From a virus, in the IMG/VR virus record IMGVR_UViG_3300025151_000017, positions 52,942 through 116,941 of that record: a stretch of DNA of 64,000 nt; one strand, given 5' to 3'. The position numbers and the translations under genes are program-made. Shown here one piece after another: positions 13,483 through 56,010 of the stretch. The stretch's first letter is position 1, and each line of letters begins with the position of its first letter. Below the pieces are notes generated by a model. That model made no database searches. It saw only the letters and a list, made by a program, of their open reading frames with translations, and was not told where the DNA came from.

Positions 13483-13823
13483 TGGCTCAAGTCCACGAAA
13501 TGCTGTTTATGAAGATGTCTAATGGCGAATACATTTATGGTTCTAATTTAGACATCGGCAGATATTCAGTAAAATTTGAACCAGCACTTGAATGTGTTCA
13601 TGAGTTTGACCATGTGCCACCTATGAAGCTAGAAGGTCAAGGTGGCTACTCGGAAGGATCTAGAGCATTCAAGTATGTTGGTGAAGACCACGATCCTATG
13701 ACAGTTTCTCATCCACCTAGTCAAGAAATGATGAGAGTGACTGCTCGAGGTGAAAAAGAATTCTATCAAACTAATGGCTGGGATTATAAAACAGGGGAGT
13801 ATATATACAACGAAAAATGGTAA
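13482..13823 (+). CDS. small hypothetical protein, 113 aa
   Basis: 113-aa protein with several Tyr/Gly-rich stretches and no recognised motif. It starts at the last base of the preceding stop and ends inside the start of the ligase-like gene. Function unknown. Confidence 0.55.
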   Translation: MAQVHEMLFMKMSNGEYIYGSNLDIGRYSVKFEPALECVHEFDHVPPMKLEGQGGYSEGSRAFKYVGEDHDPMTVSHPPSQEMMRVTARGEKEFYQTNGWDYKTGEYIYNEKW

Positions 13824-15052
13824 AATCACTCAAGACATTAATTACTGAGCAAAAGAATGTTCACATGGAGCACATCGAAGATCTTCTTTTTGATGAAGGT
13901 GTCGCTGGTGCTCGTCGTTCTATAAACTTCATGCAGAATATGCGTGATATGTTAGCTGGTAAATCTACTAGCAAAATAAATGCTACAGTAAAATGGGATG
14001 GTGCACCTGCGATCTTTGCTGGTACAGATCCTAGAAATGGCAAAAAGTTTATTGCTAAAAAAGGTATCTTCAACAAGAATCCTAAAGTTTATTATACACC
14101 TGCCGATATTAAGAAAGACACATCTGGCGACCTACAGAAAAAACTATTAATCTGTATGACATATTTACCTAAAGTGTTGCCAGATCGTGGTATCTTCCAA
14201 GGAGACTTAATGTGGGCAGGTCGTACCGATCTAAAAGTTAAAACCATAGATGGTGGTAAGTATGTGACATTCCAACCTAACACTATCGTGTATGCTGTTC
14301 CTGCAGTGTCAGCTTTATCTAATCAGATTAGTCGTGCTCATATGGGTATCGTATGGCATACTTCTTATACAGGTAATACCTTTGAGACTCTTAGAGCATC
14401 TTTTGGTAAAGGTATCAATAAGAAGATGAAAGTAAATGCTGATGTATGGTCAGACGATGCTACTTATAAAGATCTGTCTGGTCAGGGTGCAATGACTGCT
14501 AAAGAGACTGCCGAGTTTACTAAGCAACTATCTGCTATTGGTTCTCAGTTTAGAAAAGTAAATGCTAATGTATTGAACAGCATTAAGGATAATAAAGATT
14601 TACTGCTACAAGTAAAAACATTTAACAATACTAAGATACGAGCAGGGAAAAGAATTACTAATCCTAGTCAACATGTCACTCAGATGTTTCATTATATTGC
14701 CGATAAGTATAAGAAAGAAATAGATAGTAAGAAAACAGAGAAGGGTAAAGCTACATGGAAAGCTAAGAAGAACGAGGTAATGAAGTTCTTTATAAATGAT
14801 AAACAAAAAATCGTTGAGATATTTAAGTTGATGAATTTAATGGTGGATGCCAAGCAGACACTTATTACTAAGATGAACCAAATAGGATCTATGAAGACTT
14901 TTGTCAGGACTCGCAATGGGTTTAAAGTGACTGGAGTAGAAGGTTTCGTGGCTATTGACAGAATGTCAGGTAGTGCTGTGAAGCTGGTAGATAGATTAGA
15001 GTTCTCTAGACTCAATTTTTCTCCCGAAATTTTGAAAGGCTGGGATAAGTAA
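13817..15052 (+). CDS. RNA/DNA-ligase-like covalent nucleotidyltransferase fold protein, possibly packaged
   Basis: 411 aa. Motif I K-W-D-G (Lys59-Gly62 in ATVKWDGAPAIF), a motif III-like GIFQGDLMW, a motif IV-like EGFVAI (near residue 375) and a motif V-like VKLVD follow the order of RNA ligase/capping-type nucleotidyltransferases. It resembles a conserved family of T4-like marine phages (DUF6267 type, from memory). The N-terminus MVKSLKTLITEQ looks like the capsid-targeting peptides of T4 internal proteins, so it may be a virion-packaged enzyme; this is inference. It precedes a nucleotidyltransferase fusion with a similar N-terminus. Confidence 0.6.
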   Translation: MVKSLKTLITEQKNVHMEHIEDLLFDEGVAGARRSINFMQNMRDMLAGKSTSKINATVKWDGAPAIFAGTDPRNGKKFIAKKGIFNKNPKVYYTPADIKKDTSGDLQKKLLICMTYLPKVLPDRGIFQGDLMWAGRTDLKVKTIDGGKYVTFQPNTIVYAVPAVSALSNQISRAHMGIVWHTSYTGNTFETLRASFGKGINKKMKVNADVWSDDATYKDLSGQGAMTAKETAEFTKQLSAIGSQFRKVNANVLNSIKDNKDLLLQVKTFNNTKIRAGKRITNPSQHVTQMFHYIADKYKKEIDSKKTEKGKATWKAKKNEVMKFFINDKQKIVEIFKLMNLMVDAKQTLITKMNQIGSMKTFVRTRNGFKVTGVEGFVAIDRMSGSAVKLVDRLEFSRLNFSPEILKGWDK

Positions 15053-15112: not shown

Positions 15113-18100
15113 ATGAAAGATTTTAAAACACTTCTTAACGAAGTACCAAGCAAAAAGATGGTCATAGGATTCGGAAGATTTAATCCTCCGACGACTGGTC
15201 ACGAGTTGCTTATTAACAAAGTCACGCAATATGCTCGTTCAAAAGGCAGTCCTGCCAAAATATATGTCACAGCTACTGAAGACAAGAAAAAGAATCCACT
15301 AAAACAAGAACGCAAGATCTATTATATGAAAAGGATGTTCGGTCAGAACACACCTCTCGTACCAACGAAGTCGCCAAATCAAAGAACAATTATAGAAGTT
15401 GCGAAGTATCTAAACGAAAAAGAAAAGATTACTGAACTAACATTGATTGCTGGTAGTGATAGGATTAATGAATATAAAAGATTACTCAACCAATATAATG
15501 GTAAAGATTACAACTTCGACAAGATAACTGTATTATCTTCTGGTCGCAGAGACCCTGACTCAGATATGGCTGAGGGTATGTCTGCTACTAAAATGAGAAC
15601 TGCTGCATCTTCAGGTAAATTTAATGACTTCAAACGAGGTATCCCTCGTAGAATGACTGTAGCTGACAGTAAAAGATTATTCAACGAAGTACGCAAAGGC
15701 ATGGGTCTGCCACCAATTAGAGAAGAAGTAATTCTACCAACATCTCAACTAAGAGAAGATTATGTAGCCAAGAAGATATTTAATATCGGAGCAGTAGTTG
15801 AAGATGATAAAGGTGTCTACGAAGTAATGGATCGTGGAGCAAATTATATTTCCGTGTCTGACGAAGATGGCAATGTATCTAAAAAATGGCTACACGAAGT
15901 TCGTCAGATATCGGAAAAGAATACTGTAAATGATTATCACTACAATGATGAGATTGTATATAAAGGATATACCACAGAACACTTTAGAAACTATTATGAA
16001 ATAAAAGATAAGTTTTTAGATTTGTTTGAAAGTGATAAAGATCCTGTTGCTATTCTTACTTGCTTAAAATTAGTTGACCAAACACTAAAGATTTTATCTG
16101 AAGCAGAGTCTAGAGGATACGCATTAATAGAAGAAGCTGGTGCCGATTCTATTATAAAAATGAAACTTGCAGATAGTCTAAATAGTATTGGCGAACTCGG
16201 AAATCATGATTACTTAGATAAAATTAATGCCGACTTGGCTGACTTATTAGCAAGAGAACCAAACATGAAAAAAGACTTAGAAGAACAAAAGAACTTAAAA
16301 ATTGACCCACAGAATAAATTTAGATTTACTTCTGCGGATAGAATTAAAGTGGCTAGAATTATTGCTGGTTCATTAGGTATAGACAATCCTGAGAAGATGT
16401 CTAACCCAACACAACTTATTAACTTCGGTCTTAGGAAACTAAGAACTAAAAGAGTCACTCCTGAGTTTGCTGAAATCGTAAAGAAAATGCTACAAACTGC
16501 AAACACAGCAGGCATTGATTACGATCGTCAGTATCTACCAGCCATTATGAGAACAGGTAAATTTAAAGTAGAACAAAAATCATTTAAAGACTTCGTGAAC
16601 GAAGTATCTGGCTCAGGTGTAGATCCTATTGTTGTACAGCTTAGAAAGAACATTAATCTAAAAGGTAATTATACATTCGAGTTTACTGATGGCTCTAAAG
16701 GTAAGATGTCTCCTGGAGCATCAGAAGGTATCCTGAAAAAATACGAAGGACTTCGTACTCCGAAACAAAAATTAAATGTATCAAGAGGTATGGGTAAATC
16801 CATGAAGTCTCTAAAAGATACATTATCAAACTTTGATGCGATAGCTAATAAAGAAGATCCTAGAGATAAAAAGTCAGGTAGAGAAGAGCCAACTCGTGGG
16901 TTGGTAAATCCTATGGATAAAAAGCCAATCAAAAAAGAAGAAGTACAGGAAGCTAAGAAAGAAAAGAAAAAAGATCCTGAAAAAGATTACAAGCCACACA
17001 TGATGTACGATCCTAAAACAGGCAAAGGTGTTATGGCTAAGAAATATGCTGACCACGAAAAGCTGAAGAAGTTAGGATATGACCACGACGATCCTTCCAC
17101 TAAACAGATAGAAGAAGATCCTCTTACACTAACTAAAGATAGAATTAAAAAAGAAAAAGAAGCTGATAAAATTAAGCATGATAAAATGATGGATCGTGCT
17201 AGAACTCAAAGTGCTTTGAAAAAGAATCGTGAAACTAAACCGATGAAGAAAGAAGAGTCGGAAGGTAAGAAAGGCATTATGGGTGTTGGCTCAGATGTCA
17301 CTCGTAAAGTAAGACAAGGTCTAAGAGCCGAACTTATGATGCGTATGGCTATGACCAAGAAAAAAATGGCAAAAACTAAAAAGGGAACTAAAGAGTTTGA
17401 CGAACTTTATGCTGAGTATAAAAAGTGTAAAGATAAAATGAGAAACCTGCCAGGCAAAGAGGGTGTAAACGAAGAGAAAAAGAAAGGCACTCATAAGTAT
17501 TATAAAGGTGTTTCTAATAAAGATAAGAAGGCAAGAAGGGATGAGTTTGAAAGGGATGCTAAAAAAGATGATAGCGATCCTACCAAATACGATCCTGCTG
17601 CTGGAGATCTAGATAAAAAAGGCGACTTCAAGAAAACTAAAAAATCTAAACACACACTTAAATACCACAAGAAGTATGGCGACCCAGCAAAAGAAAAAAC
17701 TAATGAAGAGAAAAAGCCAAGTGTTGACGAAGTAGATCCTTCAACTAATTTTAATATCGCTAAGTCTATTATGTCTTACAAAGATTATAAGAAGATGCTA
17801 AAACTAGCAGGTGGTATAGTAAAAAGAAATGAAAAGGGTGAAGTAGAATCTAAAGCAACTCGTGATGAAAAAATCATGAAGCAAGTTGTCGACGAACAAA
17901 AGAAAAACTGTGGGTGTGGTAAAGACCCATGCGAAACTTATGGTAATCTCCCTGAAGATAAAGAGATGACCGATGCCCAAATGAAAAAACGAGAAGACAT
18001 CGTTAAGGGTATGAAAGATAAAACTGCTGATTTTAAAAAGCGATATGGCAAAGATTATAAAAATGTAATGTATGCTACAGCCACTAAGATGGCTATGAAA

Positions 18101-18982
18101 GAAGATGTAGAACAATCTCCAGGAGATCCGATGGTAAAGATAAACATCGAGAAACCTGTAGAAACTGAAGATAAACCCAAAGCTGATAAAATTAAAAAAA
18201 AATCTGGGACACCAAAGTCTGACGACCCATATGATTTAGAAGTATTCGTAGCAGATCCAAAATATGATGCGATGCTGGACGACCTAAGTGCTGATGAAAT
18301 CGATAGTGTCGTCAATATGTTTGACCCAGAACAAGATCCGATAAATGGTAAGCTAGACATCTTTGACTTATATGATGATGACGAACTAGCAATAGAAGTT
18401 GAAGATGAAGATGGCGAAGTTTCTATGGAAGCATTCGAGTATCTTGAGGATGATGTAGAACAACAGCTGAACGAAGTATTATCTAGAACTGAAAGAATTA
18501 AAAACCGAGTAAGAGTTAGAAGGACAAAAGCAAGGAGAGCAAGAAGTTTACGAATCGCTCTTAGACGACACTCTTCTCAGAAGATAATAAATAGTAGAGC
18601 AAGAAGATTAGCAGTAAAACTGCTGAAAAGAAGATTCTTTAAAAAGCCACCAACTCAATTATCTGTGGGTGAGCGAGAAAGAGCTGAAGCAAGAATTGCT
18701 AAGATGCGTCATGTGGTAAAAAGGATTGCTCTAAAACTAGCACCTCGTGTTAGACAGATGGAGAAGAAAAGACTACATAGTAGGAAAAGCACTAAGTCTG
18801 GAGCACTAGGTAGAAAACTTAAAGGTCATTTTAGATCGGCACTGGCTGGTGGTAGAATTAGAACTGCTAGAAAACAAACAGGTCGTAAATATAAAGGCAA
18901 CACTGTTGGACAAAGGTCTAGACCAGGAAAAGGATATGGTGGTGCCACAGGTAAAAGATATGGGGGAGTAAAAAGACGATGA
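15113..18982 (+). CDS. large virion-type protein: N-terminal cytidylyltransferase-like domain, long charged linker, basic C-terminus
   Basis: 1289 aa. Residues 15-190 form a nucleotidyltransferase domain with TTGH (residues 27-30, the HxGH-type motif) and MSATKMR near 158 (ISSTxxR-type motif), as in NadM-like enzymes. The long middle is Lys/Glu/Asp-rich with several small blocks, including a Cys cluster CGCGKDPC. Residues about 1118-1289 are extremely Arg/Lys-rich and probably bind nucleic acid. N-terminal MKDFKTLLNEV and internal SFKDFVNEV (residues 490-498) look like T4 capsid-targeting/prohead-protease sites, so it may be packaged and cleaved. It overlaps the next gene by 4 nt. Confidence 0.65.
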   Translation: MKDFKTLLNEVPSKKMVIGFGRFNPPTTGHELLINKVTQYARSKGSPAKIYVTATEDKKKNPLKQERKIYYMKRMFGQNTPLVPTKSPNQRTIIEVAKYLNEKEKITELTLIAGSDRINEYKRLLNQYNGKDYNFDKITVLSSGRRDPDSDMAEGMSATKMRTAASSGKFNDFKRGIPRRMTVADSKRLFNEVRKGMGLPPIREEVILPTSQLREDYVAKKIFNIGAVVEDDKGVYEVMDRGANYISVSDEDGNVSKKWLHEVRQISEKNTVNDYHYNDEIVYKGYTTEHFRNYYEIKDKFLDLFESDKDPVAILTCLKLVDQTLKILSEAESRGYALIEEAGADSIIKMKLADSLNSIGELGNHDYLDKINADLADLLAREPNMKKDLEEQKNLKIDPQNKFRFTSADRIKVARIIAGSLGIDNPEKMSNPTQLINFGLRKLRTKRVTPEFAEIVKKMLQTANTAGIDYDRQYLPAIMRTGKFKVEQKSFKDFVNEVSGSGVDPIVVQLRKNINLKGNYTFEFTDGSKGKMSPGASEGILKKYEGLRTPKQKLNVSRGMGKSMKSLKDTLSNFDAIANKEDPRDKKSGREEPTRGLVNPMDKKPIKKEEVQEAKKEKKKDPEKDYKPHMMYDPKTGKGVMAKKYADHEKLKKLGYDHDDPSTKQIEEDPLTLTKDRIKKEKEADKIKHDKMMDRARTQSALKKNRETKPMKKEESEGKKGIMGVGSDVTRKVRQGLRAELMMRMAMTKKKMAKTKKGTKEFDELYAEYKKCKDKMRNLPGKEGVNEEKKKGTHKYYKGVSNKDKKARRDEFERDAKKDDSDPTKYDPAAGDLDKKGDFKKTKKSKHTLKYHKKYGDPAKEKTNEEKKPSVDEVDPSTNFNIAKSIMSYKDYKKMLKLAGGIVKRNEKGEVESKATRDEKIMKQVVDEQKKNCGCGKDPCETYGNLPEDKEMTDAQMKKREDIVKGMKDKTADFKKRYGKDYKNVMYATATKMAMKEDVEQSPGDPMVKINIEKPVETEDKPKADKIKKKSGTPKSDDPYDLEVFVADPKYDAMLDDLSADEIDSVVNMFDPEQDPINGKLDIFDLYDDDELAIEVEDEDGEVSMEAFEYLEDDVEQQLNEVLSRTERIKNRVRVRRTKARRARSLRIALRRHSSQKIINSRARRLAVKLLKRRFFKKPPTQLSVGERERAEARIAKMRHVVKRIALKLAPRVRQMEKKRLHSRKSTKSGALGRKLKGHFRSALAGGRIRTARKQTGRKYKGNTVGQRSRPGKGYGGATGKRYGGVKRR

Positions 18983-19326
18983 AATCATTTAGAGAACATA
19001 GGGAAGATGCGATAGATTGTGCTTGTGATAAACTAGAACTTCCTACACTTGAGGAAGCTAAGTATCAAGGCAAGACTGTCACACTTAACGACCCTATTCG
19101 TACTTCTGAAAATCCTAACAAAAAATTTAAAGTATATGTAAAAGGTCCAAAAGGTAATGTCGTTGTGGTTCGCTTTGGAGATCCGAACCTAAGTATTAAA
19201 AGAGACGACCCTAAAAGGAGAAAAAGTTTCAGAGCAAGACATGGGTGCGATAATCCAGGTCCGAAATGGAAAGCGAAATATTGGTCATGCTATCAATGGA
19301 GAGCAGGCTCAAAAGTAGACAACTAA
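18979..19326 (+). CDS. conserved virion-associated small basic protein
   Basis: 115 aa; begins MKSFREHRED (a possible packaging tag) and ends in a conserved-looking basic block RRKSFRARHGCDNPGP followed by KWKAKYWSC, rich in Trp, Cys and Arg. I recognise this block from structural-region proteins of marine T4-like phages, with no known function. Cys/His placement could bind a metal. Confidence 0.6.
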   Translation: MKSFREHREDAIDCACDKLELPTLEEAKYQGKTVTLNDPIRTSENPNKKFKVYVKGPKGNVVVVRFGDPNLSIKRDDPKRRKSFRARHGCDNPGPKWKAKYWSCYQWRAGSKVDN

Positions 19327-19350: not shown

Positions 19351-20331
19351 ATGAGTAGTGGTAATAATGGTCCAGTGGACATTCCCCAAACTGATGAAGA
19401 ATGGGATAAATTAATCGCTGAAGGACAGCGAAATGCAGAAGAGTTAGAACAGCAAATGGGTCAAGACCCATATGTTTCTGGCTTGACAAAACCTACAGAA
19501 CCAAATCCTAGTGTAAACCCATACAGCTCAGATCCTAATGCACCTTTACCAGAAGGTGTAAAGAAAAAAGTTATGGGTATGATGATTCCTACAAGGGAGA
19601 AACAGCTTGAGGATTATGAGAAGTATAAGGAAGCAACTGCTAAAACTACTGACCAAGAAAAAGTAAGTTGGGCGATTGAACAAATCAATGCAAGTAGTTT
19701 TGAAAGCGACCTAGATGGTGCTCAAGAATGGCTAAAAGAAAACAAGCAGGAAATGGATGAGACAAAAAGACTTACCATTACTGAAGGACAAGCTGTTCAG
19801 GTACACTTTGTTAAACAAATATCTGAAGAAGAGTTTGAGAAAAAAATTATTGAAGGACTTGCTGAGATTAAACAGCTAGAAGTATCTGAGATTATGGAAG
19901 CTGGTGGTATGGATGCCCACCTCGTAAGAGATCTAGATATTGACTCACTTGATGCAATCGAACTGATTATGGATGCTGAGGATATGCTTGGTGCCCAGAT
20001 CGAAAATACTGAGATTATGTGGGTCAAAACTCTTAGAGATATCTTCGAAGTAATTAAGTATAAAATCGAGAATGATAATATGCCTTATCCTATCCCTGAT
20101 TTTGACGAAGAAGATATTATCTTTAGACCACAAACTAATAATGTTGATGGTGTAGAGGTACATCAAGGCAACTCTGCTTATAAACAATTTATGGCAGGTG
20201 CTGGGGAAAGGAAAGAAATCGAAGGAGATATCGATGCTTTCCTTGAAGAAGAGGAAGAAAGGGAACGCAAAATGCGTGAACTTTTAGATGAAGACGACGA
20301 TGACCTATCTGTAGGGCATAATAAGTCTTAA
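19351..20331 (+). CDS. acyl carrier protein domain in a larger acidic protein
   Basis: 326 aa. Residues about 161-240 form a standard ACP: LVRDLDIDSLDAIELIMDAE, with Ser199 in DSL as the phosphopantetheine site, then the helix III/IV pattern ending TLRDIFEVI. The flanks are unrelated: an N-terminal Pro/Glu-rich region and a very acidic C-terminus. A matching AcpS (50012), ketoacyl synthase (53547), FabI (48616) and MaoC dehydratase (27938) occur in the same window. Its position among virion genes is odd; the flanks might tether the carrier to a particle or scaffold. GGAGA precedes the ATG. Confidence 0.85.
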   Translation: MSSGNNGPVDIPQTDEEWDKLIAEGQRNAEELEQQMGQDPYVSGLTKPTEPNPSVNPYSSDPNAPLPEGVKKKVMGMMIPTREKQLEDYEKYKEATAKTTDQEKVSWAIEQINASSFESDLDGAQEWLKENKQEMDETKRLTITEGQAVQVHFVKQISEEEFEKKIIEGLAEIKQLEVSEIMEAGGMDAHLVRDLDIDSLDAIELIMDAEDMLGAQIENTEIMWVKTLRDIFEVIKYKIENDNMPYPIPDFDEEDIIFRPQTNNVDGVEVHQGNSAYKQFMAGAGERKEIEGDIDAFLEEEEERERKMRELLDEDDDDLSVGHNKS

Positions 20332-20386
20332 ATAGAAGTTAAAAACTAACTAAATAATAGTAAATTAATCAATGAAGGAGATTAAA

Positions 20387-20647
20387 ATGACTAATGAAAA
20401 TGAAGAAGTGGCTGTAGAGAATGAAACTCCAGAAGCTACTCAGGAAACTGAAGCACCTGTAGAACAAGAAGCTCAAGCTGAAGTACCAGCTGAAGCACCT
20501 GCCGAAGCACCTGCTGAAGAAGCACCAGAAGCAGAAGCAAAAGCTGAGGAAACTCCTGCAGAGGAGACTCCAGCAGAAGAGCCGAAAAGTTATACAGATA
20601 GACTAAGAGATGCTGCAGTAAATGAGTTAGACCAACTTATTAAGTAA
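20387..20647 (+). CDS. acidic Ala/Pro/Glu-repeat protein, possible prohead core (gp67-like)
   Basis: 86 aa of low-complexity (E-A-P-A-E) repeats followed by a short C-terminal helix. AAGGAG (20375-20380) places the start at ATG 20387, not at the ATG in the ribosome binding region (20372). Small very acidic proteins beside virion genes in T4-like phages include the prohead core protein gp67; composition and location fit, but sequence alone cannot prove it. Confidence 0.5.
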   Translation: MTNENEEVAVENETPEATQETEAPVEQEAQAEVPAEAPAEAPAEEAPEAEAKAEETPAEETPAEEPKSYTDRLRDAAVNELDQLIK

Positions 20648-22618: not shown

Positions 22619-23734
22619 ATGGCAATGTGGGGAGACTCTGATTCACATGTGAATCGACCAAACTGGCTAGAAGTTGGGCAAATCAAAAAAGTTAATATAA
22701 CTACTTTAGGAAGTGGATATGGTTCCGCTCCTTCAGTCACGATTGCTGCTCCAGCATCTGGTACTCAAGCTACAGGAACTGGTGTATTATCTGGTTCAAC
22801 TTTAGCTTCCGTGACTATTACCGATCCTGGTGATGGATATGTAGCAGGAGATGCTGCTGGTGTGACTATTGCTGCACCAACATCTAATACTGTTGCTACT
22901 TCTGCTGTCACAGTAGGAACTGACACAGTCACAACTGGAACGCACAACTTAAATACTGGCGATCCAGTAATCTATGCTAATGGTGGTGGTACTGATATCA
23001 CTGGATTAACTGGTGGTACTACTTATTATGCAATTAAAGTAGATGCTACAAACATCAAATTAGCAACTAACATTACTAATGCCGAAGCTGGTACTGCAAT
23101 CGATCTTACTGGCACAGGTAATAACTCACAAACCTTCTCTGGTGTACAAGCTGTAGGAAGTGTTGTAAAAGCTGCAAACAAATATGCTGCTGCGGACATT
23201 ATGTTCGTTGACACTGACGAAGCACAACTTGCTCAAAACAAAGCAAGAGGTATCACTGGTGCTGGTTGGTGGACTCTGAAATCTGGTAGACAGGATTCAG
23301 ATGGGAATACAAGATACGAAGCTGAATGTATCGTAGCTATGGCTCGTACTGCTGCTCAAGCTGGTGACGATGCTGCCGATGACGCAATGGTGTCTGATGC
23401 TGCAAACTCATTTGCTATTACAGTACAACCTGCTGCTGCAACTACATCAAGTGGAAACGCAACATTTACTTTAACAACTGGTTCAGTAGTTGGAACTATC
23501 GGAGCACTTAACTATAAGTGGCAAAGACAAACTGCTAACGGAACTCGTTGGACTGACATCAGTGGTTCTACCGATGGTGGTATCTACTCAGACTTCGCTA
23601 CTGCGACTCTAGCAGTTGCTGGTGTGACTGACACTACTCATGATGGTAAGAAGTACCGAGTCAAAGTAAACAGTGCTAATGGTGCACCAGAGCAAGTCTC
23701 TGATGGTGTAGCTACACTTACTTTCGGATCTTAA
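22619..23734 (+). CDS. virion decoration/fibre protein with Ig-like C-terminus
   Basis: 371 aa, Gly/Ala/Thr/Ser-rich. The N-terminal part has two copies of the GYGSAPSVTIAAPASGTQAT-type repeat seen in marine phage structural proteins; the C-terminal about 110 residues (ITVQPAAATTSSGNATFTL onward, with W and YRVKV) form an Ig-like fold. GGAGA precedes the ATG. Probably exposed on the particle. Confidence 0.65.
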   Translation: MAMWGDSDSHVNRPNWLEVGQIKKVNITTLGSGYGSAPSVTIAAPASGTQATGTGVLSGSTLASVTITDPGDGYVAGDAAGVTIAAPTSNTVATSAVTVGTDTVTTGTHNLNTGDPVIYANGGGTDITGLTGGTTYYAIKVDATNIKLATNITNAEAGTAIDLTGTGNNSQTFSGVQAVGSVVKAANKYAAADIMFVDTDEAQLAQNKARGITGAGWWTLKSGRQDSDGNTRYEAECIVAMARTAAQAGDDAADDAMVSDAANSFAITVQPAAATTSSGNATFTLTTGSVVGTIGALNYKWQRQTANGTRWTDISGSTDGGIYSDFATATLAVAGVTDTTHDGKKYRVKVNSANGAPEQVSDGVATLTFGS

Positions 23735-39297: not shown

Positions 39298-39760
39298 TTA
39301 TATGAGATTTCTAGTTCTTTTGCTGTTGCCAACCATGGCAATGGCTGACCAATTATCATTTGAGTTTGGTAATCCTGCCTTTTCTAAGCAAGGTTATAGC
39401 TCTCATGTCTTGAGTGTTGAACAATTATCATACTCAAGGAAACAAGATGTGATAGAAGACGCAAAGAGTGAAGCTGCAAGAGCAGAAAGAGATGCAGAAA
39501 ACACTACAGTTGCGAAGTTTATTAAGAATGTAGAATCTAGAATTTATGCTAACTTGTCGAAGCAGTTAGTTGATAACATGTTCGGTGAAAGTTGTGATAG
39601 TACAACTACGAACTGTCCGACGAGTGGTACTTCAGAAGTTGAGGGTGCTACTATTTACTGGGTTAAAGATACAACCACGGAGATAATCACTCTCACTATT
39701 ACAGACGAGAATGGTTCTGTGACAAGCATGAGTGTACCTATCGGCGATTTTGTATTTTAA
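39287..39760 (+). CDS. csgF: CsgF-like curli assembly factor
   Basis: 157 aa with a signal peptide (LLLLPTMAMA). Mature start QLSFEFGNPAFSKQGYSS matches the N-terminal FxFxNPxF segment by which CsgF plugs the CsgG pore; SRIYANLSKQLVDNMFG and IITLTITDENG match the C-terminal family pattern. CsgF anchors the curlin nucleator outside the outer membrane. It directly precedes csgG, as in bacteria. ATG 39287 chosen because it begins the signal peptide. Confidence 0.85.
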   Translation: MLNNYMRFLVLLLLPTMAMADQLSFEFGNPAFSKQGYSSHVLSVEQLSYSRKQDVIEDAKSEAARAERDAENTTVAKFIKNVESRIYANLSKQLVDNMFGESCDSTTTNCPTSGTSEVEGATIYWVKDTTTEIITLTITDENGSVTSMSVPIGDFVF

Positions 39761-39773
39761 AAGGAGTTGCCCA

Positions 39774-40601
39774 GTGCAAAAATTATGTAGGAGTATAGTA
39801 TTATTGTCTCTGCTTTTTGTAGTAGGATGTGCGACACCTCTGAAGTATAATGAATACAAAGAGATGGGTCCATTCCATCATGGTACTCCGACGAGTAAAT
39901 TATTAAAAGATTTACCACCATTAGATAATGATATAATGACCATAGCAGTTTATAACTTTATGGATAAAACTGGTCAGAGAAAACCAAGTGCCAAGTTTTC
40001 TCAACTATCAACTGCTGTGACGCAAGGACCAGAGGTGTGGGTAATACAAGCACTAAAAGAAGCTGGTAATGGCACATGGTTTAAAGTTGTAGAACGAGGT
40101 GGTTTAGAAAACCTCGTCAAAGAAAGGCAACTGATACGATCTACTAGAGAATCGTATGAGGGTGCTGAAGCAAATAAGAATTCTTTGAAACCTTTATTAT
40201 TTGCTGGATTGATATTAGAGGGTGGGATTGTATCCTATGACACTAATATTGATACAGGTGGTTTCGGAGTAAGGTACTTTGGTATCGGTGCATCGGAAGA
40301 GTACCGAGTTGACCAAGTCACTGTCTCAATGAGAGTTGTAGCAGTACAAACAGGAGAAGTAATCCTAGCTGTAAATGGTACAAAAACTATCGCATCTCAT
40401 AAGACAGGAGTTGATGCTTTTAGGTTTATAGATATGGGAACAAGAGCGATAGAGGTTGAAAGTGGGGTGAGTGCGAACGAACCTGTTAATTATGCTATAA
40501 GATCTGCAGTTGAATACTGTATTATAGAAATAATAAAACAGGGCGAGCAAAAGTCACTCTGGAAATTTAAGGAGAAAGAAACAGATGAAGGAATACATTA
40601 A
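39774..40601 (+). CDS. csgG: CsgG-like outer-membrane curlin secretion channel
   Basis: 275-aa lipoprotein: GTG start with AAGGAG upstream, lipobox VVGC (Cys19). The body matches CsgG: AVYNFMDKTGQRKPS, STAVTQGPE, WFKVVERGGLENLVKERQLIRSTRE, YFGIGASEEYRVDQVTVSMRVV. CsgG forms the nonameric pore that exports curlin subunits. The next gene encodes a curlin-repeat protein. CsgE and CsgC are not seen, so the host may supply them or they may not be needed. Confidence 0.92.
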   Translation: MQKLCRSIVLLSLLFVVGCATPLKYNEYKEMGPFHHGTPTSKLLKDLPPLDNDIMTIAVYNFMDKTGQRKPSAKFSQLSTAVTQGPEVWVIQALKEAGNGTWFKVVERGGLENLVKERQLIRSTRESYEGAEANKNSLKPLLFAGLILEGGIVSYDTNIDTGGFGVRYFGIGASEEYRVDQVTVSMRVVAVQTGEVILAVNGTKTIASHKTGVDAFRFIDMGTRAIEVESGVSANEPVNYAIRSAVEYCIIEIIKQGEQKSLWKFKEKETDEGIH

Positions 40602-41283
40602 AAAAACTTTGTTATGTATTGTCCCTTTACTATTTGCTGGTAATTTTCTTCTGGCTAACGATGTCTATGTCACACAAAGTGGTGATTCACTTGACTTAGA
40701 TATTACTCAAGATGGTCAGAATAACACTATCGGTAATTCTACTACTGCTTCCAGTTCGACAGGTGCCACCACTACTTTGGATATTGACCAAGTCGGTAAT
40801 AGTAATGTGATTACTTATCAGATTAATGGTGCTACTTATACTGGCACAATTAATTTGGCTGGTAATTCAAACAATGTTGATTTGAACTGTGATAGCACAG
40901 GTAATAATAGTTCTTGTGGAACTGTTAATGCTGTAGTTAATTTTACAGGTAATTCAAACGACATCGACTTAGATATTGGTCAAACTGCAGCAGCAGGTAA
41001 TGCTGATGTGGATATAGTAGGTCAAAGTGGGTCCGACAGTAATGTCGTGGCTGCCACTATCGATGGTACAAGTGCCATCTTGACTATTACTGTGAATGGT
41101 GACACTAACAACTGGTTGATAGATGTAGATGGTAATGGTGATGTCAATGGACATACTTTGATACATACGCATACTGGTGGTATCGCTGATGTAGATATAA
41201 CTCAGTCTGGTATTAATGACCAAATGATAACCCTGACAACTTCGGGAGATAATCATGACATCGATATCAGTCAAACTGACTAA
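40585..41283 (+). CDS. curlin-repeat protein (CsgA/CsgB-like) 1
   Basis: 232 aa, signal peptide (LFAGNFLLA), then degenerate curlin repeats of the Q-x-G-x2-N type: ITQDGQNNTIG, IDQVGNSNVITYQING, GNSNDIDLDIGQ, ITQSGINDQMITL and terminal DISQTD. Rich in Asn, Asp, Gly, Ser and Thr, almost no Lys/Arg. Likely a self-assembling extracellular beta-fibre exported by the CsgG above, with which it overlaps by 17 nt. A 53-nt gap follows. Confidence 0.82.
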   Translation: MKEYIKKTLLCIVPLLFAGNFLLANDVYVTQSGDSLDLDITQDGQNNTIGNSTTASSSTGATTTLDIDQVGNSNVITYQINGATYTGTINLAGNSNNVDLNCDSTGNNSSCGTVNAVVNFTGNSNDIDLDIGQTAAAGNADVDIVGQSGSDSNVVAATIDGTSAILTITVNGDTNNWLIDVDGNGDVNGHTLIHTHTGGIADVDITQSGINDQMITLTTSGDNHDIDISQTD

Positions 41284-41336
41284 TTTATTTACAGAAGATC
41301 CAAGCATTATGCTGTTTTTGATGATAACTTTTTAAT

Positions 41337-42440
41337 ATGTCTAGGTTTGTAATTATATTTCTGGTGCTGGCTATGACACAATTAAGTCATGCCAGCATCG
41401 GCAATGTAGAAATTCATGAAGGAAATGGTGTCATTGAGCGAAAAGCCAATGGCGAAGAAGTAAGTACCAAAGAAGATTTAGATGTCTTCAGTTATGATAC
41501 TGTGAAAACAGGTAAAGGTAAAACTTCTATTGACTTCGTAGATGATACAAGAGTAGATGTTACAGAACATTCTAAACTAATCATCGATGAGTTTGTTTAC
41601 GATCCTAATACTAAAAAAGGGAAGTTGTCCTTAAAAGCAAGTTTAGGAACCATAAGGTATGCTAGTGGACAGATTGCCAAGAATAGCAGGCAAGATGTAA
41701 ACATTACAACTCCTACAGCAACTATCGCTGTAAGGGGAACGGACTTTAGTATGACAGTAGATGAGATAGGATCCTCTACTATCATATTATTACCAAGTTG
41801 CGATGCTACTGGTGCTTGCTTTGTAGGTGAGATATCAGTAGAGTCAGATGTAGGTCAAGTAATACTTAACCAAGCATTTCAAGCAACAGTGGTCGGTACT
41901 GTGTCTTCACAACCCATGAAGCCAGTCCTCTTAGATTTAGAGGAAGATATGATAGGAAACTTACTTATTATATCAAAGCCACGAGAGATAGAAGAAGAGC
42001 AAGAGCGAAGTGAATATAATAAAGTAGCAAATGCTCTTGACATAGATTTTTTAGAGTTTGAGGATCTAGAGGTAGATTACTTAGAGGAAGAAGAAGACCA
42101 GTGGGTGACTGGATTAGATATAGATTTTTTAGAACAAAACTTTTTGGTCGATATCTTAAAACAAATTAATGAACAACTTGCTTTACAGATGAGAAGTGAG
42201 TTTGATAAAAAGAGAACTACAGGTGATGTAAAGTTAGGGAAAGATCCTGAGACTGGAGTAATAATTTTAGATGAAGATCCGAACTGGGTATATTCTAGAG
42301 AGGGAGCAGGAAACTTTTTTGAACTTAGATTAGATAAAGAATATGGTTATGTAATTTCATTCACACAGAATGATTTTTCAGTATTCGATTACGAACTAGG
42401 AGGAAACAATAATGTCATCAATATTCTACAGAATCAGTAG
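41337..42440 (+). CDS. exported FecR-domain protein
   Basis: 367 aa, signal peptide (cleavage near SHA). Residues 20-165 form a FecR domain: DTVKTGKGKTSIDFVDDTRVDVTEHSKL and ATIAVRGTDFSMTV. The C-terminal half is acidic with repeated DIDFLE motifs. No membrane anchor or sigma-regulator part, so it is not a normal FecR anti-sigma. It stands between two curlin genes and overlaps the second by 29 nt. Confidence 0.8.
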   Translation: MSRFVIIFLVLAMTQLSHASIGNVEIHEGNGVIERKANGEEVSTKEDLDVFSYDTVKTGKGKTSIDFVDDTRVDVTEHSKLIIDEFVYDPNTKKGKLSLKASLGTIRYASGQIAKNSRQDVNITTPTATIAVRGTDFSMTVDEIGSSTIILLPSCDATGACFVGEISVESDVGQVILNQAFQATVVGTVSSQPMKPVLLDLEEDMIGNLLIISKPREIEEEQERSEYNKVANALDIDFLEFEDLEVDYLEEEEDQWVTGLDIDFLEQNFLVDILKQINEQLALQMRSEFDKKRTTGDVKLGKDPETGVIILDEDPNWVYSREGAGNFFELRLDKEYGYVISFTQNDFSVFDYELGGNNNVINILQNQ

Positions 42441-43146
42441 CATCATAGTTATTGCCTGGATGTTCTTGTTTGCTTCTGAAGCATTCGGTAGTGAAATTTA
42501 TATCAACCAATCAGGAAATAATTTTACACTAGATGTAATTCAAGATGGTACTGGTAATAATATAATCAGAGGATATCATAATCAAACTGCTAGTATCTCT
42601 GGTAATAATAACTCCCTAAAGATTACACAAAAACAAACTGTTTCAACTTCTACCTTTTCAACAGCACATGTAGATATAGATGGTGATAGTAATGATATAT
42701 TCATGGGATTCGGAGTAGGCACATACTCAAACGATTACACAAATTATACAGCATATGATGGTCAAGAAGCTGGCAATCATAATCAAAAGTTATATCTACA
42801 AGGAGATAATAACGACATCTATATGAGTCAAAGAAATGGCTCACCCAATCAAGCATACAGTGCTCACTCAATAGATTTAAAAATATATAGTGACTATAAT
42901 GATGTTGGTATATTCCAAGGTCACGATGGGTCAAAAACTTTAGACCTAACTATTAATAATGACTATAACGATGTAGATATTAGACAACAAGGATATAATT
43001 CTGGACACAGTGCAACTATAACACTAGATGGTAATTATCCAACTACTTTGTTTCTCAACCAGAATAATGGATATAGCAATAGTTCTTATTCATTAAATCA
43101 ATTTTGTAATACTTCTGGTGGGTGTAGTTTAACAGTAAACGACTAA
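42412..43146 (+). CDS. curlin-repeat protein 2
   Basis: 244 aa, signal peptide (FASEAFG), then QSGNNFTLDVIQDGTGNNI, GNNNSLKITQ, GDNNDIYMSQ, DYNDVGIFQG, DYNDVDIRQQG and further repeats, spaced more irregularly than in E. coli CsgA. Terminal disulphide-like C-x5-C. AGGAGG precedes the ATG. May be the nucleator or partner subunit to the protein at 40585. Confidence 0.8.
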   Translation: MSSIFYRISSIIVIAWMFLFASEAFGSEIYINQSGNNFTLDVIQDGTGNNIIRGYHNQTASISGNNNSLKITQKQTVSTSTFSTAHVDIDGDSNDIFMGFGVGTYSNDYTNYTAYDGQEAGNHNQKLYLQGDNNDIYMSQRNGSPNQAYSAHSIDLKIYSDYNDVGIFQGHDGSKTLDLTINNDYNDVDIRQQGYNSGHSATITLDGNYPTTLFLNQNNGYSNSSYSLNQFCNTSGGCSLTVND

Positions 43147-48353: not shown

Positions 48354-48619
48354 TGACAAAACCACTAGAAGAAAGATTGGTGACTCTAAAAGATCTAGAG
48401 AATAATATTGAGTATGCTGGTGAAGTTCGTGTATGTACTGAAGATAGATTAGTTGTAGCATATAGAGATGCAACTACTGCTGAAAAGAAAGAGGTACAGT
48501 TTGATGTATATGATGTTCTAAATGACAAATGGTCTAGAGAAGATTGGGAGTGTACTTACCCAAACATAAATAAACTAAACGCAACTGATGTCACTGTTCG
48601 AGTAAATAATCATAGATGA
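48353..48619 (+). CDS. small hypothetical protein, 88 aa
   Basis: Beta-rich small protein (VRVCTEDRLVVAYRDA) whose start overlaps the previous stop and whose stop overlaps the FabI start. Unknown. Confidence 0.55.
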   Translation: MTKPLEERLVTLKDLENNIEYAGEVRVCTEDRLVVAYRDATTAEKKEVQFDVYDVLNDKWSREDWECTYPNINKLNATDVTVRVNNHR

Positions 48620-49377
48620 AAATAGCTGTCGTTATGGGAGTGGCGAATAATCGCTCCATCGCATGGGGTATCGCCAACAAGTTGATAGATGAAGGATACA
48701 CTTGTGTCTTTACCTATCCAAACGATTCCATAAAAAAGAAAATTACTAGACTATCACCTATGGCTCATGTCATCAAGTGTGATGTATCCGATCCTATGGA
48801 AGTTAGAAATGCTTTCATACAAATTAAACAACATTATCCTAAGATAGATTATGTTGTACATGCTATGAGTATGACAGACTTTCGTGAGTTAGATGGTAAG
48901 ATGAAGGATATAAGTAGAGAAAACTTTTTAGAAAGTTTAAATGTTGGTTGCTACTCACTGATTGATATAGTAAGAAACAGTTTACCTATGATGAATAAAG
49001 GTGGTGCATATTTGACACTTAGTTATGATGGCTCTCGTAGAGTTTACGACAACTATAATGTAATGGGTCTAGTAAAAGCTAGTTTAGAAAGTGCTACTAG
49101 ATACTTGGCTAGAGACTGTGCCGAAGTTGGTGTACGAATAAATTGTATATCGGCAGGAGTAATTAAAACATCAAGTGCTATGGCAGTAAAAGGTAGCAAG
49201 GGTATGTTAAAATGGGCAGAGGGAGTGAACCCAATGAAAAGAAATATCACTCTAGAAGATATAGCAGGGAGTGCTTATTACTTCCTATCTGATTTATCAT
49301 CAGGTGTGACAGGTGAAACACACTATGTAGATTGCGGATATAATATAATTGGAGCACCGAGTATAGATGACATCTAA
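48616..49377 (+). CDS. fabI: enoyl-[acyl carrier protein] reductase, FabI type
   Basis: NAD(P)H-dependent last step of acyl elongation. GVANNRSIAWGIA (residues 8-20) is the FabI cofactor motif; LTLSYDGSRRVYDNYNVMGLVKASLE contains Tyr137, Tyr147 and Lys154, matching the FabI Tyr-Tyr-Lys set; INCISAGVIKT and the GVTGETHYVDCGYNI end also fit. 253 aa, near full length. First gene of the lipid-synthesis stretch (FabI, AcpS, desaturase, KAS). Confidence 0.92.
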   Translation: MKIAVVMGVANNRSIAWGIANKLIDEGYTCVFTYPNDSIKKKITRLSPMAHVIKCDVSDPMEVRNAFIQIKQHYPKIDYVVHAMSMTDFRELDGKMKDISRENFLESLNVGCYSLIDIVRNSLPMMNKGGAYLTLSYDGSRRVYDNYNVMGLVKASLESATRYLARDCAEVGVRINCISAGVIKTSSAMAVKGSKGMLKWAEGVNPMKRNITLEDIAGSAYYFLSDLSSGVTGETHYVDCGYNIIGAPSIDDI

Positions 49378-49795: not shown

Positions 49796-50015
49796 AAGAT
49801 ACAATAGGACTGAAAGATCTGAACTAATTGTAGAATCTGTAATTAAAAAATATGATGGTGAGATTGCTGAAGCAAATGCAAACTTACAGATTTATATTTC
49901 TAATTCAGTAGGTATCGGTGAACACGCAGAAGTGATAGCTGAAATCGATAAACTATTAGAGAAGATTGCATCTGCCGAAGAAAAAAAAGCAATGATAAAG
50001 AAATATACAGCATGA
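49788..50015 (+). CDS. small helical protein, 75 aa
   Basis: Two predicted helices rich in Glu/Lys/Ile. ATGA overlap with acpS. Unknown. Confidence 0.5.
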   Translation: MIKRYNRTERSELIVESVIKKYDGEIAEANANLQIYISNSVGIGEHAEVIAEIDKLLEKIASAEEKKAMIKKYTA

Positions 50016-50380
50016 CACCAAGAGCATCGATTATAGGACATGGTATTGATATGGTTCTCGAGTCTCGTTTTGAGAGACGAAGAGAGAAGTGGTCAGAAAC
50101 TATCCTGTCCCCAAAAGAGAAAGAGATTTATAATGGACTGCTAGATAGGCAGAAGTGTAATTATCTAGCAAAGGTATGGGTGTTAAAAGAAGCATTTGTG
50201 AAAGCAAGGCAACACCCAATCGTTGGTATGAAAGAAGCTAGAATGTTTTCTTATATCTCACCGAACTTAGTACCGAGTAAAGAGATAGCAGAAAAATTAA
50301 AAGGAGTAAACATACATTGTTCGCTGTCGGATTTCAAGGGTTGCGTAATTGGCTCAGTAATTTTAGAGAAAGCCATCTAA
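50012..50380 (+). CDS. acpS: holo-ACP synthase (4'-phosphopantetheinyl transferase), AcpS type
   Basis: 122 aa. GHGIDMVLESRFE (Asp13), ILSPKEKEIY and LAKVWVLKEAFVKA (Glu60) match AcpS, whose Asp and Glu bind the metal-CoA. It would attach phosphopantetheine to the Ser199 of the phage ACP at 19351 or to host ACP. ATGA overlap upstream; the desaturase start lies within its 3' end. Confidence 0.88.
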   Translation: MTPRASIIGHGIDMVLESRFERRREKWSETILSPKEKEIYNGLLDRQKCNYLAKVWVLKEAFVKARQHPIVGMKEARMFSYISPNLVPSKEIAEKLKGVNIHCSLSDFKGCVIGSVILEKAI

Positions 50381-51261
50381 CAACCTATAAAATTAATTTT
50401 CGTATCAGGTATTGGTGGTGGACCCAGCTTTGCCTGTTAGGAATAATTGTATTTGGTCGCTGGGACTTGATACCCTATGTTCTCGCATGGTGGTTTTTTG
50501 GAGCGATGGCTATAACAATATATGCTCATAGAGGATTATCACATAATAGTATAACAGTAAAATGGAAATGGCTCGAACACTTATTCTGCTCTCTTTGTAT
50601 AGTAAGCAACATCGGAAGTCCACTCGCTTGGGCAGTAATACACCGAATGCATCACGCATATCTAGACGAGGAGAGAGATCCACACAGTCCACATCAAATT
50701 GGTTTCTTAAGATCCTTAACCCATAGATGGGATGTACCTTTTGAAAATGTGCCACTAAGATTTACAAGAGGATTACTTAGAAACGAAACTGCTAGATGGT
50801 ATCACGATAATAGTTTTAAATCTATGTGTATTACTATCTTTGGTGCATACTTACTAATGTTATTATGGGGTATTATTGTAGAGACTTATACTAATGGAAT
50901 ATTCGTAATGCTTCCAGAACTATGGTATTATCTGACTAACTTCTATTGGTACGATGGTCCATATCTTTATATTCAAGAGTGGGGACTTAACTTTGCATGG
51001 GCAGCATTTGCTGGAGCAGGTCTTGGGCAATGGTCTATGGGTATTACTAACGCATGGCAACATAGTGATAAACGAGGTAAACAATACATTCGTAATGTTC
51101 CATGGTATCTAAGTTTTATAAACTGGGGAGAAGGCAGTCATGATTATCATCATACAAACCCTAGAGATTACAGTTTCGGAAAAGGATTAAACGATCCTAC
51201 ACAATATTTTATACTTTTTTTGGAAAAGATTGGAGCAGTGAGTATAAATAGAAATATATAA
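50317..51261 (+). CDS. membrane fatty-acid desaturase (delta-9 type)
   Basis: 314 aa with the three His boxes of acyl-CoA/acyl-lipid desaturases: HRGLSH (71-76), HRMHH (109-113) and HDYHH (275-279). Membrane helices lie at about 35-68, 90-108, 170-190 and 225-245. TTG 50317 has AAGGAG 10 nt upstream and overlaps acpS by 64 nt; a later TTG is possible. It introduces a double bond into acyl chains, complementing the elongation enzymes around it. Confidence 0.9.
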   Translation: MFAVGFQGLRNWLSNFRESHLTTYKINFRIRYWWWTQLCLLGIIVFGRWDLIPYVLAWWFFGAMAITIYAHRGLSHNSITVKWKWLEHLFCSLCIVSNIGSPLAWAVIHRMHHAYLDEERDPHSPHQIGFLRSLTHRWDVPFENVPLRFTRGLLRNETARWYHDNSFKSMCITIFGAYLLMLLWGIIVETYTNGIFVMLPELWYYLTNFYWYDGPYLYIQEWGLNFAWAAFAGAGLGQWSMGITNAWQHSDKRGKQYIRNVPWYLSFINWGEGSHDYHHTNPRDYSFGKGLNDPTQYFILFLEKIGAVSINRNI

Positions 51262-51446: not shown

Positions 51447-51725
51447 ATGATGGAAGATATGGTTTTGGAAATGAATACTGATTTGGTTGATTATATTATT
51501 ACCCTTACATTCTCATTTCTATTTTTTGTAGTAGGTTGGGCAATGCCACGAGGTAATGCCCTGAAAAAAATTCAAGGTAAAATCTTTAAAAGGATTTACA
51601 ACTGGACAGGTGTGTTTATGGTGAAGCTACATAACTTCTTTGCGGATAGTGAGTTTCATCTAGAGCATGTCTGGCAGGATACTAAGGACTATGTCAGAAA
51701 GAAATATGGCTATAAGAAAAAATAA
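51447..51725 (+). CDS. small membrane protein, 92 aa
   Basis: AAAGGAAAT precedes ATG 51447 (MMEDMVLEM). One membrane helix (IITLTFSFLFFVVGWAM) and a basic, aromatic cytoplasmic tail. In a lipid-enzyme neighbourhood; unknown. Confidence 0.55.
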   Translation: MMEDMVLEMNTDLVDYIITLTFSFLFFVVGWAMPRGNALKKIQGKIFKRIYNWTGVFMVKLHNFFADSEFHLEHVWQDTKDYVRKKYGYKKK

Positions 51726-52516
51726 TGTTTAGACCACCTTATCATGTAGAGTTAAAAGATGTACCATTTCCTTTATCTAAGAAGGAACTGGAGAAACAGA
51801 TTGCACGATACGATAAGGAGCATGGTGATTGGGCAAAGCGAAAAGAAGAAACTATACCTGAGATATGGCATACTGATAAAACATCAGCAGCATATGGTGC
51901 GTATGGTTTTGTAGCAAATCTTTGGATAAATCATGAAAGATTTACACCTGAGTTTCAGCTATGGTTAGATAAACATTTAATAAAGCCAGCACTGGTCGGA
52001 ACTATATTCGTTTCCCCACCTGGATATTCACTGCGTCCACACATAGACCATACTGATTATAGTCATAGATATTATTGGCGACTTAACTTTCCTGTTGGTT
52101 TAGAAGACAACGAAGATAAGTGTATGACTTTCTGGGATCCTCGTGATTGTGTAATGGAAAGACGAAATAAAATTAACCACCCAAAGATGCCACATACAAA
52201 CTCAATGAGTTTGATTGAGTTTGATGATGCTACACGACCAAAGGTTAAAAAACATTTTGATACACAACTAGGTGCATGTTCAATTGTATGTGTAGGTGGA
52301 CCTGACTGTGCTCATAGTATGATATATGATGGCGAAAAAGAATCCTACACTATTTCTATAGCAATTGTAGATAAATTAACTAATCATAATTTTGAAAAAT
52401 GGGAAGCTATAGAAAAAAGATTAGGGCAATATTTTGTAAAAGAAGATAAACCATCTCCCATAAAAGCATGGGTGAAAGAGGATGGAGAATTTGGATGGAG
52501 TAGAGATGTTACATGA
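51725..52516 (+). CDS. 2OG-Fe(II) oxygenase-like protein, copy 1
   Basis: 263 aa. PHIDHTDYSHRYYWRLNFPV (His-x-Asp), and GPDCAHSMIYDGEKESYTISIAIV (second His, then a Ser/Thr where Arg is often found) indicate an oxygenase core like that of the adjacent 52506 gene. The two are diverged paralogues (shared order: PH-x-D, MTFWD/MTYWD, HS). They lie between the desaturase and the ketoacyl synthase, so an acyl or lipid substrate is possible but unproven. Confidence 0.62.
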   Translation: MFRPPYHVELKDVPFPLSKKELEKQIARYDKEHGDWAKRKEETIPEIWHTDKTSAAYGAYGFVANLWINHERFTPEFQLWLDKHLIKPALVGTIFVSPPGYSLRPHIDHTDYSHRYYWRLNFPVGLEDNEDKCMTFWDPRDCVMERRNKINHPKMPHTNSMSLIEFDDATRPKVKKHFDTQLGACSIVCVGGPDCAHSMIYDGEKESYTISIAIVDKLTNHNFEKWEAIEKRLGQYFVKEDKPSPIKAWVKEDGEFGWSRDVT

Positions 52517-53534
52517 ACCATATTACATGTCTTTGAAAGACACACTCGAACGACCTATTACTAATGAAGACTTACATGAGATATTAACACCACTAAGAGA
52601 GAATCTTAATCGTGGCAATATATGTGTTAGGAATAGTTATTTTCGTATTGAAATGATGAAGCAGTGGAGGGACATGATGCTTATGCCTTATGGTTGTAGT
52701 ATCTTTCGTGCCTTACCACATTATAGAATGTCACCACATGTTGATAGTCCGAGTCGTCCTAACTGGGGCAGAGTGACTTGGGCATATGAAGAAGTAAGTC
52801 CTGGCATATATGAACCATGGCAACCAGATGAAAACGAGTCATCTATTATGACTTACTGGGATGCTAGTGAAGCAGAGGAATGGACTTCTGATATGTGTAA
52901 TGTATCAGGCGATCCTGATAGAGATCTAACTTATGTAATCCCTAGAGAAAAAAGATTGCCAGGATGGGGAACTGGGTTGAAAGAAGAACTAAGTTTTCAA
53001 ATGTCATATCCTGGATTAATTAATGTAGGACAACCACATTCAGTATGGCATACTTCTGACAAACCTCGTATCGCTATATCTATTGAGTTTATGAATAGGA
53101 AAGGTGAGTTTGAAGGATTTGACAAACTGGCTAAAACCTTACAAAGATTTGGTTATGCTGATTTAGAAAGGGATGACCGAACTAAAAAATATGGCAGTAG
53201 AATGACGAATAGATTTACTTGCCTATATAATAAAGAGACAAATGAAGATGTTCCTGAAACTGTTTTTGATGAGAAAGCACTCAAAGAAAAAATAGAAAAA
53301 CATCTAGGTAGTAATGCTGCTGGTATGTCTTGGGAAGAAGCTGAAGAAGTTTATCTCAAGGAGAGATTACTCGAGAAGGGTGCACCTCCTGGGAAAATGT
53401 TAGAAGCACAAGGTCTAGATTATGACCAGTTCTTAGAAAAGAAAGGTGTCGGATTTAGATATGTTATAGGCAATGTTATGCAGAGCCTAGTGAACATCGA
53501 GGATGAATATAGGGCAAAATACCCTAACAAATAA
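52506..53534 (+). CDS. 2OG-Fe(II) oxygenase-like protein, copy 2
   Basis: 342 aa; ATG 52506 has GGAG 5 nt upstream and overlaps the previous stop by 11 nt. SPHVDSPSRPNWGRV (His-x-Asp), IMTYWDASEAE, and GQPHSVWHTSDKPRIAISIEF (His and Arg) give a complete oxygenase set, better kept than in copy 1. Extra C-terminal helical domain of about 110 residues. Confidence 0.65.
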   Translation: MLHEPYYMSLKDTLERPITNEDLHEILTPLRENLNRGNICVRNSYFRIEMMKQWRDMMLMPYGCSIFRALPHYRMSPHVDSPSRPNWGRVTWAYEEVSPGIYEPWQPDENESSIMTYWDASEAEEWTSDMCNVSGDPDRDLTYVIPREKRLPGWGTGLKEELSFQMSYPGLINVGQPHSVWHTSDKPRIAISIEFMNRKGEFEGFDKLAKTLQRFGYADLERDDRTKKYGSRMTNRFTCLYNKETNEDVPETVFDEKALKEKIEKHLGSNAAGMSWEEAEEVYLKERLLEKGAPPGKMLEAQGLDYDQFLEKKGVGFRYVIGNVMQSLVNIEDEYRAKYPNK

Positions 53535-55496: not shown

Positions 55497-56010
55497 GAAT
55501 AAAAAAATATATCTAGATATGGACGGAGTTTTAGCTAACTTCGACGATTATTATTTTAGGAATGGCAGACATTCTTTTATCTATGAAGAGTTTAGACAAG
55601 AAGTCATGGATAATAAGTTGTTTGAAAATCTACCTAAGATGGTAAACATGGATGAGTTGGTCGACTCAGTAAGAGCGATCGCTGAAAAACATGATTATAA
55701 AATTGAAATCTTGTCAAGTGTTCATACACTATACGATGACCAATACACTGAGTCTTGCAGACAAAAAAGAAAGTGGTTAGTAAAAAATGGTATGGGCGAC
55801 TTACCAACTAACTTCGTAAAAGGTAGAACTGAAAAAGGAACTTATGGTTCTGATGGTGATATCTTAATCGATGACCAACTTACTTGTGTTCATTACTTTA
55901 ATGAAAATGGTGGTGTTGGTATTGGTCATAAAAATGTTATCGATACTCTTACATTACTTCAGAAGGTTATCGCTGACAGAAAATTACAAGAGGTGAGACT
56001 TGCTAGTTAA
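55495..56010 (+). CDS. 5'(3')-deoxyribonucleotidase-like HAD hydrolase
   Basis: 171 aa, NT5C-like HAD: motif I DMDGVLANFDD (Asp8, Asp10), motif II ILSSVH, Lys in FVKGRTEK, motif IV ILIDDQ. Would dephosphorylate deoxynucleoside monophosphates, salvaging or adjusting pools. Directly behind copy 2 of the palindromic promoter. Confidence 0.82.
   Translation: MNKKIYLDMDGVLANFDDYYFRNGRHSFIYEEFRQEVMDNKLFENLPKMVNMDELVDSVRAIAEKHDYKIEILSSVHTLYDDQYTESCRQKRKWLVKNGMGDLPTNFVKGRTEKGTYGSDGDILIDDQLTCVHYFNENGGVGIGHKNVIDTLTLLQKVIADRKLQEVRLAS

Follow-up and report, generated by a model that had tools for sequence, protein, structure and literature searches.

The window analysed here, a stretch of 64,000 bp (positions 52,942 to 116,941 of the IMG/VR virus record IMGVR_UViG_3300025151_000017), contained an ORF encoding a 326-aa protein with an embedded acyl carrier protein (ACP) domain. 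The ORF was preceded by GTGGAGATAAT, in which GGAG is a ribosome-binding-like sequence. The features of the locus, all on the plus strand, were as follows.

13817-15052, plus strand: DUF6267 protein (PF19782, 1e-107)
15113-18982, plus strand: cytidyltransferase-type protein, family T4-GC190 (phrog_3041)
18979-19326, plus strand: 115-aa protein directly upstream of the ACP gene (phrog_7595; HTVC008M relative in synteny)
19351-20331, plus strand: acidic ACP-containing protein, 326 aa (ATG start; open in all 12 relatives checked)
19402-19425, plus strand: WDKLIAEG, residues 18-25, possible prohead-protease/capsid-targeting-like site (motif scan)
19825-20079, plus strand: ACP domain, residues 159-243 (PF00550, PDB ACP matches, strong purifying selection)
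19945-19947, plus strand: Ser199 codon in DSL, predicted 4'-phosphopantetheine site (translation; invariant in alignment A1)
20080-20328, plus strand: C-terminal flank with conserved MPYPIPDF and acidic tail (alignment, dN/dS by region)
20372-20647, plus strand: 91-aa acidic protein, E/A/P-rich, directly downstream of the ACP gene (synteny)
22619-23734, plus strand: head protein (phrog_613)

Residues 186-231 of the protein matched PF00550 (E = 4.3e-5) with 24.1 bits, above the curated cut-off of 20.8 bits, and the top PDB sequence match was 1x3o, an acyl carrier protein of 80 aa, over approximately residues 159-239. The protein was acidic along its whole length (pI 4.27, net charge -45). Together with the intact ORF, these values bear out the preliminary description of an ACP with a DSL motif and Ser199 inside a 326-aa acidic protein; its account of the neighbours, the cytidyltransferase-type and 115-aa proteins upstream and the 91-aa protein downstream, was likewise correct. 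The flanks of the domain matched no Pfam family, residues 128 to 238 were covered by one PHROG with no function assigned there, and a Pfam scan found no catalytic domain beside the ACP on the polypeptide, which sets it apart from the FAS/PKS megasynthases. In domain, DSL serine and predicted helix order the protein resembled AcpP of bacterial type II fatty-acid synthesis, whereas AcpP is a stand-alone protein of about 80 aa and the phage domain has long acidic flanks and stayed below the NCBIfam ACP equivalog cut-offs (36.6 versus 65; for TIGR00517, 26.8 versus 70.45). AlphaFold, proposed earlier as a check of the flanks, gave a pLDDT of 41 both for the full protein (7 sequences) and for residues 140-262 (4 sequences); at this low confidence, helices were predicted in the order expected of the four-helix ACP fold.

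Thirteen loci encoding the protein, with 80-100% identity, were found in IMG/VR, and wider searches there returned the same loci, while the full 326-aa protein had no relative in a collection of 50,697 phage records. All of the 12 loci checked (out of 13) were free of stops and kept DSLDAIEL with the serine. Compared with two of three diverged relatives, the ACP segment showed 1-2 nonsynonymous versus 15-31 synonymous differences, and codon alignments with these two (L005 and L007) gave dN/dS values of 0.007 and 0.012 for the domain, whereas residues 1-60 reached 0.39-0.55 and residues 261-326 approximately 0.1; with the third (L004) the contrast between regions was weaker, with a value of 0.18 for the domain. 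Since the ORF is open and in frame in the relatives and the constraint differs by region, the ACP is truly embedded in the larger protein, few parts of which are as constrained as this domain. A chance ORF was ruled out by the intact ORF in relatives and the few nonsynonymous differences, and a decaying domain by the purifying selection and the retention of the ORF. The same kind of architecture, an ACP within a larger protein, was kept in the relatives and was also seen in Prochlorococcus phages, as a search suggested in the preliminary description revealed. Weak ACP-like matches within unannotated or hypothetical proteins, one of them 186 aa, were noticed in Vibrio phage P018-4 (L032:5447-6007) and in ICP1 records.

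The record containing the window (G000; 116,941 bp) is probably a fragment. Its gene content was T4-like, including DNA polymerase, UvsX, a DnaB-like helicase, primase and ribonucleotide reductase, and the gene order near the ACP gene was like that of Pelagibacter phage HTVC008M, phage C48C1 and Methylophilales phage Melnitz (all Kyanoviridae); this synteny with T4-like genes ruled out host contamination. The conserved order of the cluster was DUF6267 protein, cytidyltransferase, 115-aa protein, ACP protein, 91-aa protein, 652-aa protein and head protein. The cytidyltransferase family (T4-GC190) has been detected in virions of cyanophage S-SM1 (PMC3037559); the member encoded here is 1289 aa long with a long, very basic C-terminus, and its relatives align over about half of it. 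CTAAATA, a late-promoter-like site, occurred just 5' of the cytidyltransferase gene (15057) and just 3' of the ACP gene (20350), with a strong strand bias; these sites were rejected as evidence because the window total was below chance (14 found versus 20.4 expected) and the motif holds a TAA stop.

A second group of genes relevant to the ACP was located approximately 29 kb from it.

48616-49377, plus strand: FabI-type enoyl-ACP reductase (PF13561, 2e-71; PDB FabI, 1e-66)
50012-50380, plus strand: holo-ACP synthase, AcpS (PF01648, PDB AcpS, GHGIDMV and KEAFVKA motifs)
50317-51261, plus strand: membrane fatty-acid desaturase with three His boxes, true start uncertain (PF00487, 3e-8)
51725-52516 and 52482-53534 (together 51725-53534), plus strand: two conserved proteins with possible Fe/2OG-oxygenase motifs
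53547-54770, plus strand: beta-ketoacyl-ACP synthase (FabF-like KAS), Cys-His-His intact (PF00109/PF02801; PDB KAS II, 3e-35)

The active-site motifs of FabI, AcpS, desaturase and KAS were all intact, which ruled out dead copies of the partner enzymes. AcpS scored 41.9 bits against PF01648 (cut-off 25), with both the GxD and KEA motifs present, and 40.3 against TIGR00516, below the cut-off of 59.8. FabI, AcpS and KAS were all above the Pfam and below the NCBIfam equivalog cut-offs, as expected for divergent phage copies, and the two proteins between desaturase and KAS matched no Pfam family. The order FabI-AcpS-desaturase-KAS was fixed in three related contigs (L141, L147 and L148), with 81-93% identity for the four genes. 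Many KAS and FabI matches in the phage collection were left out, being on unannotated faecal contigs or on records possibly holding host DNA. The best cellular matches found for FabI were mostly from SAR11 (43-49%), which hints at a SAR11-type host for this phage.

Other genes of the window were also of note. Near the fatty-acid genes, the ORF at 56000-56545 encodes a small HD hydrolase similar to alarmone hydrolases of the MESH1/SpoT type (PDB matches down to 5.5e-16); ppGpp normally restrains lipid synthesis. A cytochrome c-type protein (56551-56988, PF00034) lies in the same region as an alternative oxidase (58566-59159, PF01786, 2.7e-66), and P-HM1 and P-HM2 also carry a terminal quinol oxidase (PMC3037559). 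The product of 59280-60368, with weak matches, was of the diiron AurF or R2-like oxidase type and was conserved in L148. A CHASE2 sensor and a class III nucleotide cyclase were combined in one phage protein (43674-45503; close PHROG phrog_35576; 88-91% conserved in relatives). CsgG and curlin-repeat proteins were encoded at 39732-43146; curli genes are known in pelagimyophages, and the curlin-repeat proteins are of interest because no csgA or csgB was reported there (PMC7029224).

Both ACP and AcpS were present in four of our records (G000, G001, G002 and G005) and in Prochlorococcus phages P-HM2 and MED4-213, and neither was found in HTVC008M, C48C1, Melnitz or a freshwater record of 144,834 bp (G008). 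In every record longer than 70 kb searched for both, the two were jointly present or jointly absent, with the one caveat that a 99,969-bp fragment was scored as lacking both by search only; the records with only one of them (G003, G004, G006, G007 and G013) were pieces of 35-68 kb. ACP and ACPS were also listed by Sullivan et al. among the genes common to P-HM1 and P-HM2 (PMC3037559). ACP and AcpS thus travel as a pair. The link of this pair to KAS is looser and not strict, since KAS and FabI were looked for and not found in P-HM2 and MED4-213, and freshwater relatives had KAS and desaturase, with ACP and AcpS not found.

Based on these data, we lean towards the reading that the domain is activated by the phage and serves as a carrier in type II fatty-acid synthesis augmented by phage enzymes, and the phage probably commandeers part of the fatty-acid synthesis of its host. 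The AcpS that the phage itself encodes would phosphopantetheinylate Ser199, and the resulting holo-ACP, once loaded, would carry acyl chains through a cycle to which the phage gives the condensing enzyme (KAS) and FabI, the reductase completing each cycle, and the host the remaining enzymes; this presumes that the carrier is recognised by these partners. The desaturase would then modify the product and change membrane lipids in infection, the benefit being that membrane lipid synthesis is sustained or altered while infecting. The probable role of the long acidic flanks is to anchor the carrier or to direct it to a site. Evidence for a carrier includes the ACP matches, the near-frozen domain, AcpS in the genome, the intact motifs of the partners, the fixed gene order and the co-occurrence. 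Counted against it were 1) the size of the protein, free ACPs being about 80 aa, 2) the position of the gene in a structural-type cluster, far from the FabI-KAS run, and 3) the phages with ACP and AcpS that lack detectable KAS and FabI, and the freshwater relatives with KAS in which no ACP was found.

The cluster raises the possibility that the ACP protein is a packaged internal or core protein of the head, of which an N-terminal segment would target the prohead and be cut by the protease after Glu24, such that holo- or acyl-ACP would travel in the particle and act on a virion component or enter the next cell. The evidence consists of location and a short protease-like motif. As for location, the conserved cluster also holds a head protein and a cytidyltransferase whose family has been detected in virions, and the ACPs of Prochlorococcus phages also adjoin tail genes. 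As for the motif, W18, D19, I22 and E24 of WDKLIAE/G (the slash marking the putative cut) were invariant in the alignment, and a pattern modelled on T4 prohead-protease sites (hydrophobic-x-x-hydrophobic-[LI]-x-E-[AGSQV]) occurred within the first 40 residues in 5 of 158 ORFs, against an expectation of 0.5 based on the remainder of the proteins. These five ORFs encode a scaffold-like gp22, the DUF6267 protein, the cytidyltransferase, the ACP protein and a neck-region protein. However, this pattern was chosen post hoc, with the sequence already seen, it showed no enrichment in P-HM2, and the ACP of P-HM1 lacks the glutamate, so that the site at the N-terminus is no more than suggestive. The first 10 residues of T4 IPIII suffice for targeting (PMC9026906), whereas the site here is at residue 24. 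The T4 internal proteins with a capsid targeting sequence share with the ACP protein a cluster with packaged-type proteins and an xLIAE/G-like site, but they are basic, while the ACP protein is acidic. We regard packaging as rather unlikely; it is compatible with phage-augmented fatty-acid synthesis, and the two can be true together. A combined scheme, in which the ACP packaged in the head would be delivered in holo or acylated form to the next cell so that synthesis with the phage's AcpS, KAS, FabI and desaturase would start at once, appears improbable. The preliminary description had proposed a tethered carrier with particle-associated acylation: the embedding was real and the cluster was conserved with a virion-detected family, but acylation in the particle gained no direct support. 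The presence of AcpS, FabI, KAS and desaturase in the same genome argues for an ordinary intracellular job of the carrier, and phage-augmented synthesis is better supported than particle-associated acylation.

It is also conceivable, at a low probability, that the ACP acts as a decoy or a regulator and does not carry chains for synthesis; it would bind ACP-sensing or ACP-using proteins of the host (SpoT, for example) and block a starvation response. The phage encodes both the MESH1/SpoT-like HD hydrolase (56000-56545) and a MazG-like protein. An interaction between bacterial ACP and SpoT is documented (PMC3340395), and P-HM2, with ACP and AcpS and no KAS or FabI found, would fit an ACP of this kind; against it, the dedicated AcpS and the run of ACP-pathway genes in the genome argue for a working carrier. 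Service of the carrier to a small specialised product, e.g., hydroxylated acyl or aminoacyl groups made with the two conserved, possibly oxygenase-type proteins encoded between the desaturase and KAS genes, instead of membrane fatty acids is very unlikely, because these proteins have no Pfam match and no adenylation domain, loading ligase or acyltransferase was found among the scanned genes, even though oxygenase-type genes occur in P-HM2 too.

Phage-augmented fatty-acid synthesis, the preferred reading, has several partial precedents. The ACPs of P-HM1, P-HM2 and MED4-213 (T4-GC457, phrog_27464; ACPS, T4-GC500; PMC3037559) likewise belong to T4-like marine phages, lie within longer proteins (155-164 aa), adjoin virion genes and have their own AcpS elsewhere in the genome, but they share only 42-44% identity over 43 residues with the ACP described here and have another gene neighbourhood, and KAS and FabI were not detected in P-HM2 and MED4-213. 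Freshwater pelagimyophages with fabF and a stearoyl-CoA desaturase (PMC7029224) are related T4-like phages with KAS and desaturase (57% and 38%, respectively, between L155-type contigs and the window genes), but ACP and AcpS were not found in them, nor was FabI near KAS. The fabG-acpP-fabF genes of Rhodobacteraceae prophages (PMC8224337) are a case of phage-borne ACP with genes for fatty-acid synthesis; they differ in being on prophages, not lytic-type T4-like phages, in a host-type operon order and with no ACP fusion described. Thus phage ACPs (PMC3037559, PMC8224337), fabF with desaturase (PMC7029224) and single lipid genes were known before, and fatty-acid biosynthesis, summed over many viruses, is a target of ocean viral genes (PMC11360552). 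In the literature searched, which was thin on subscription journals, no phage was found described as carrying ACP, AcpS, FabI, KAS and desaturase together, and the 326-aa ACP fusion was likewise not encountered.

Among the metabolic genes of phages, those for lipids are still poorly understood. Here one genome combines a carrier with the enzyme that likely activates it and with three fatty-acid enzymes, whose genes are in fixed order across diverged marine phages; together they provide a testable case for takeover of acyl-chain building, as opposed to a single added enzyme. The ACP fusion, in turn, offers a clean test of carrier-protein packaging by phages.
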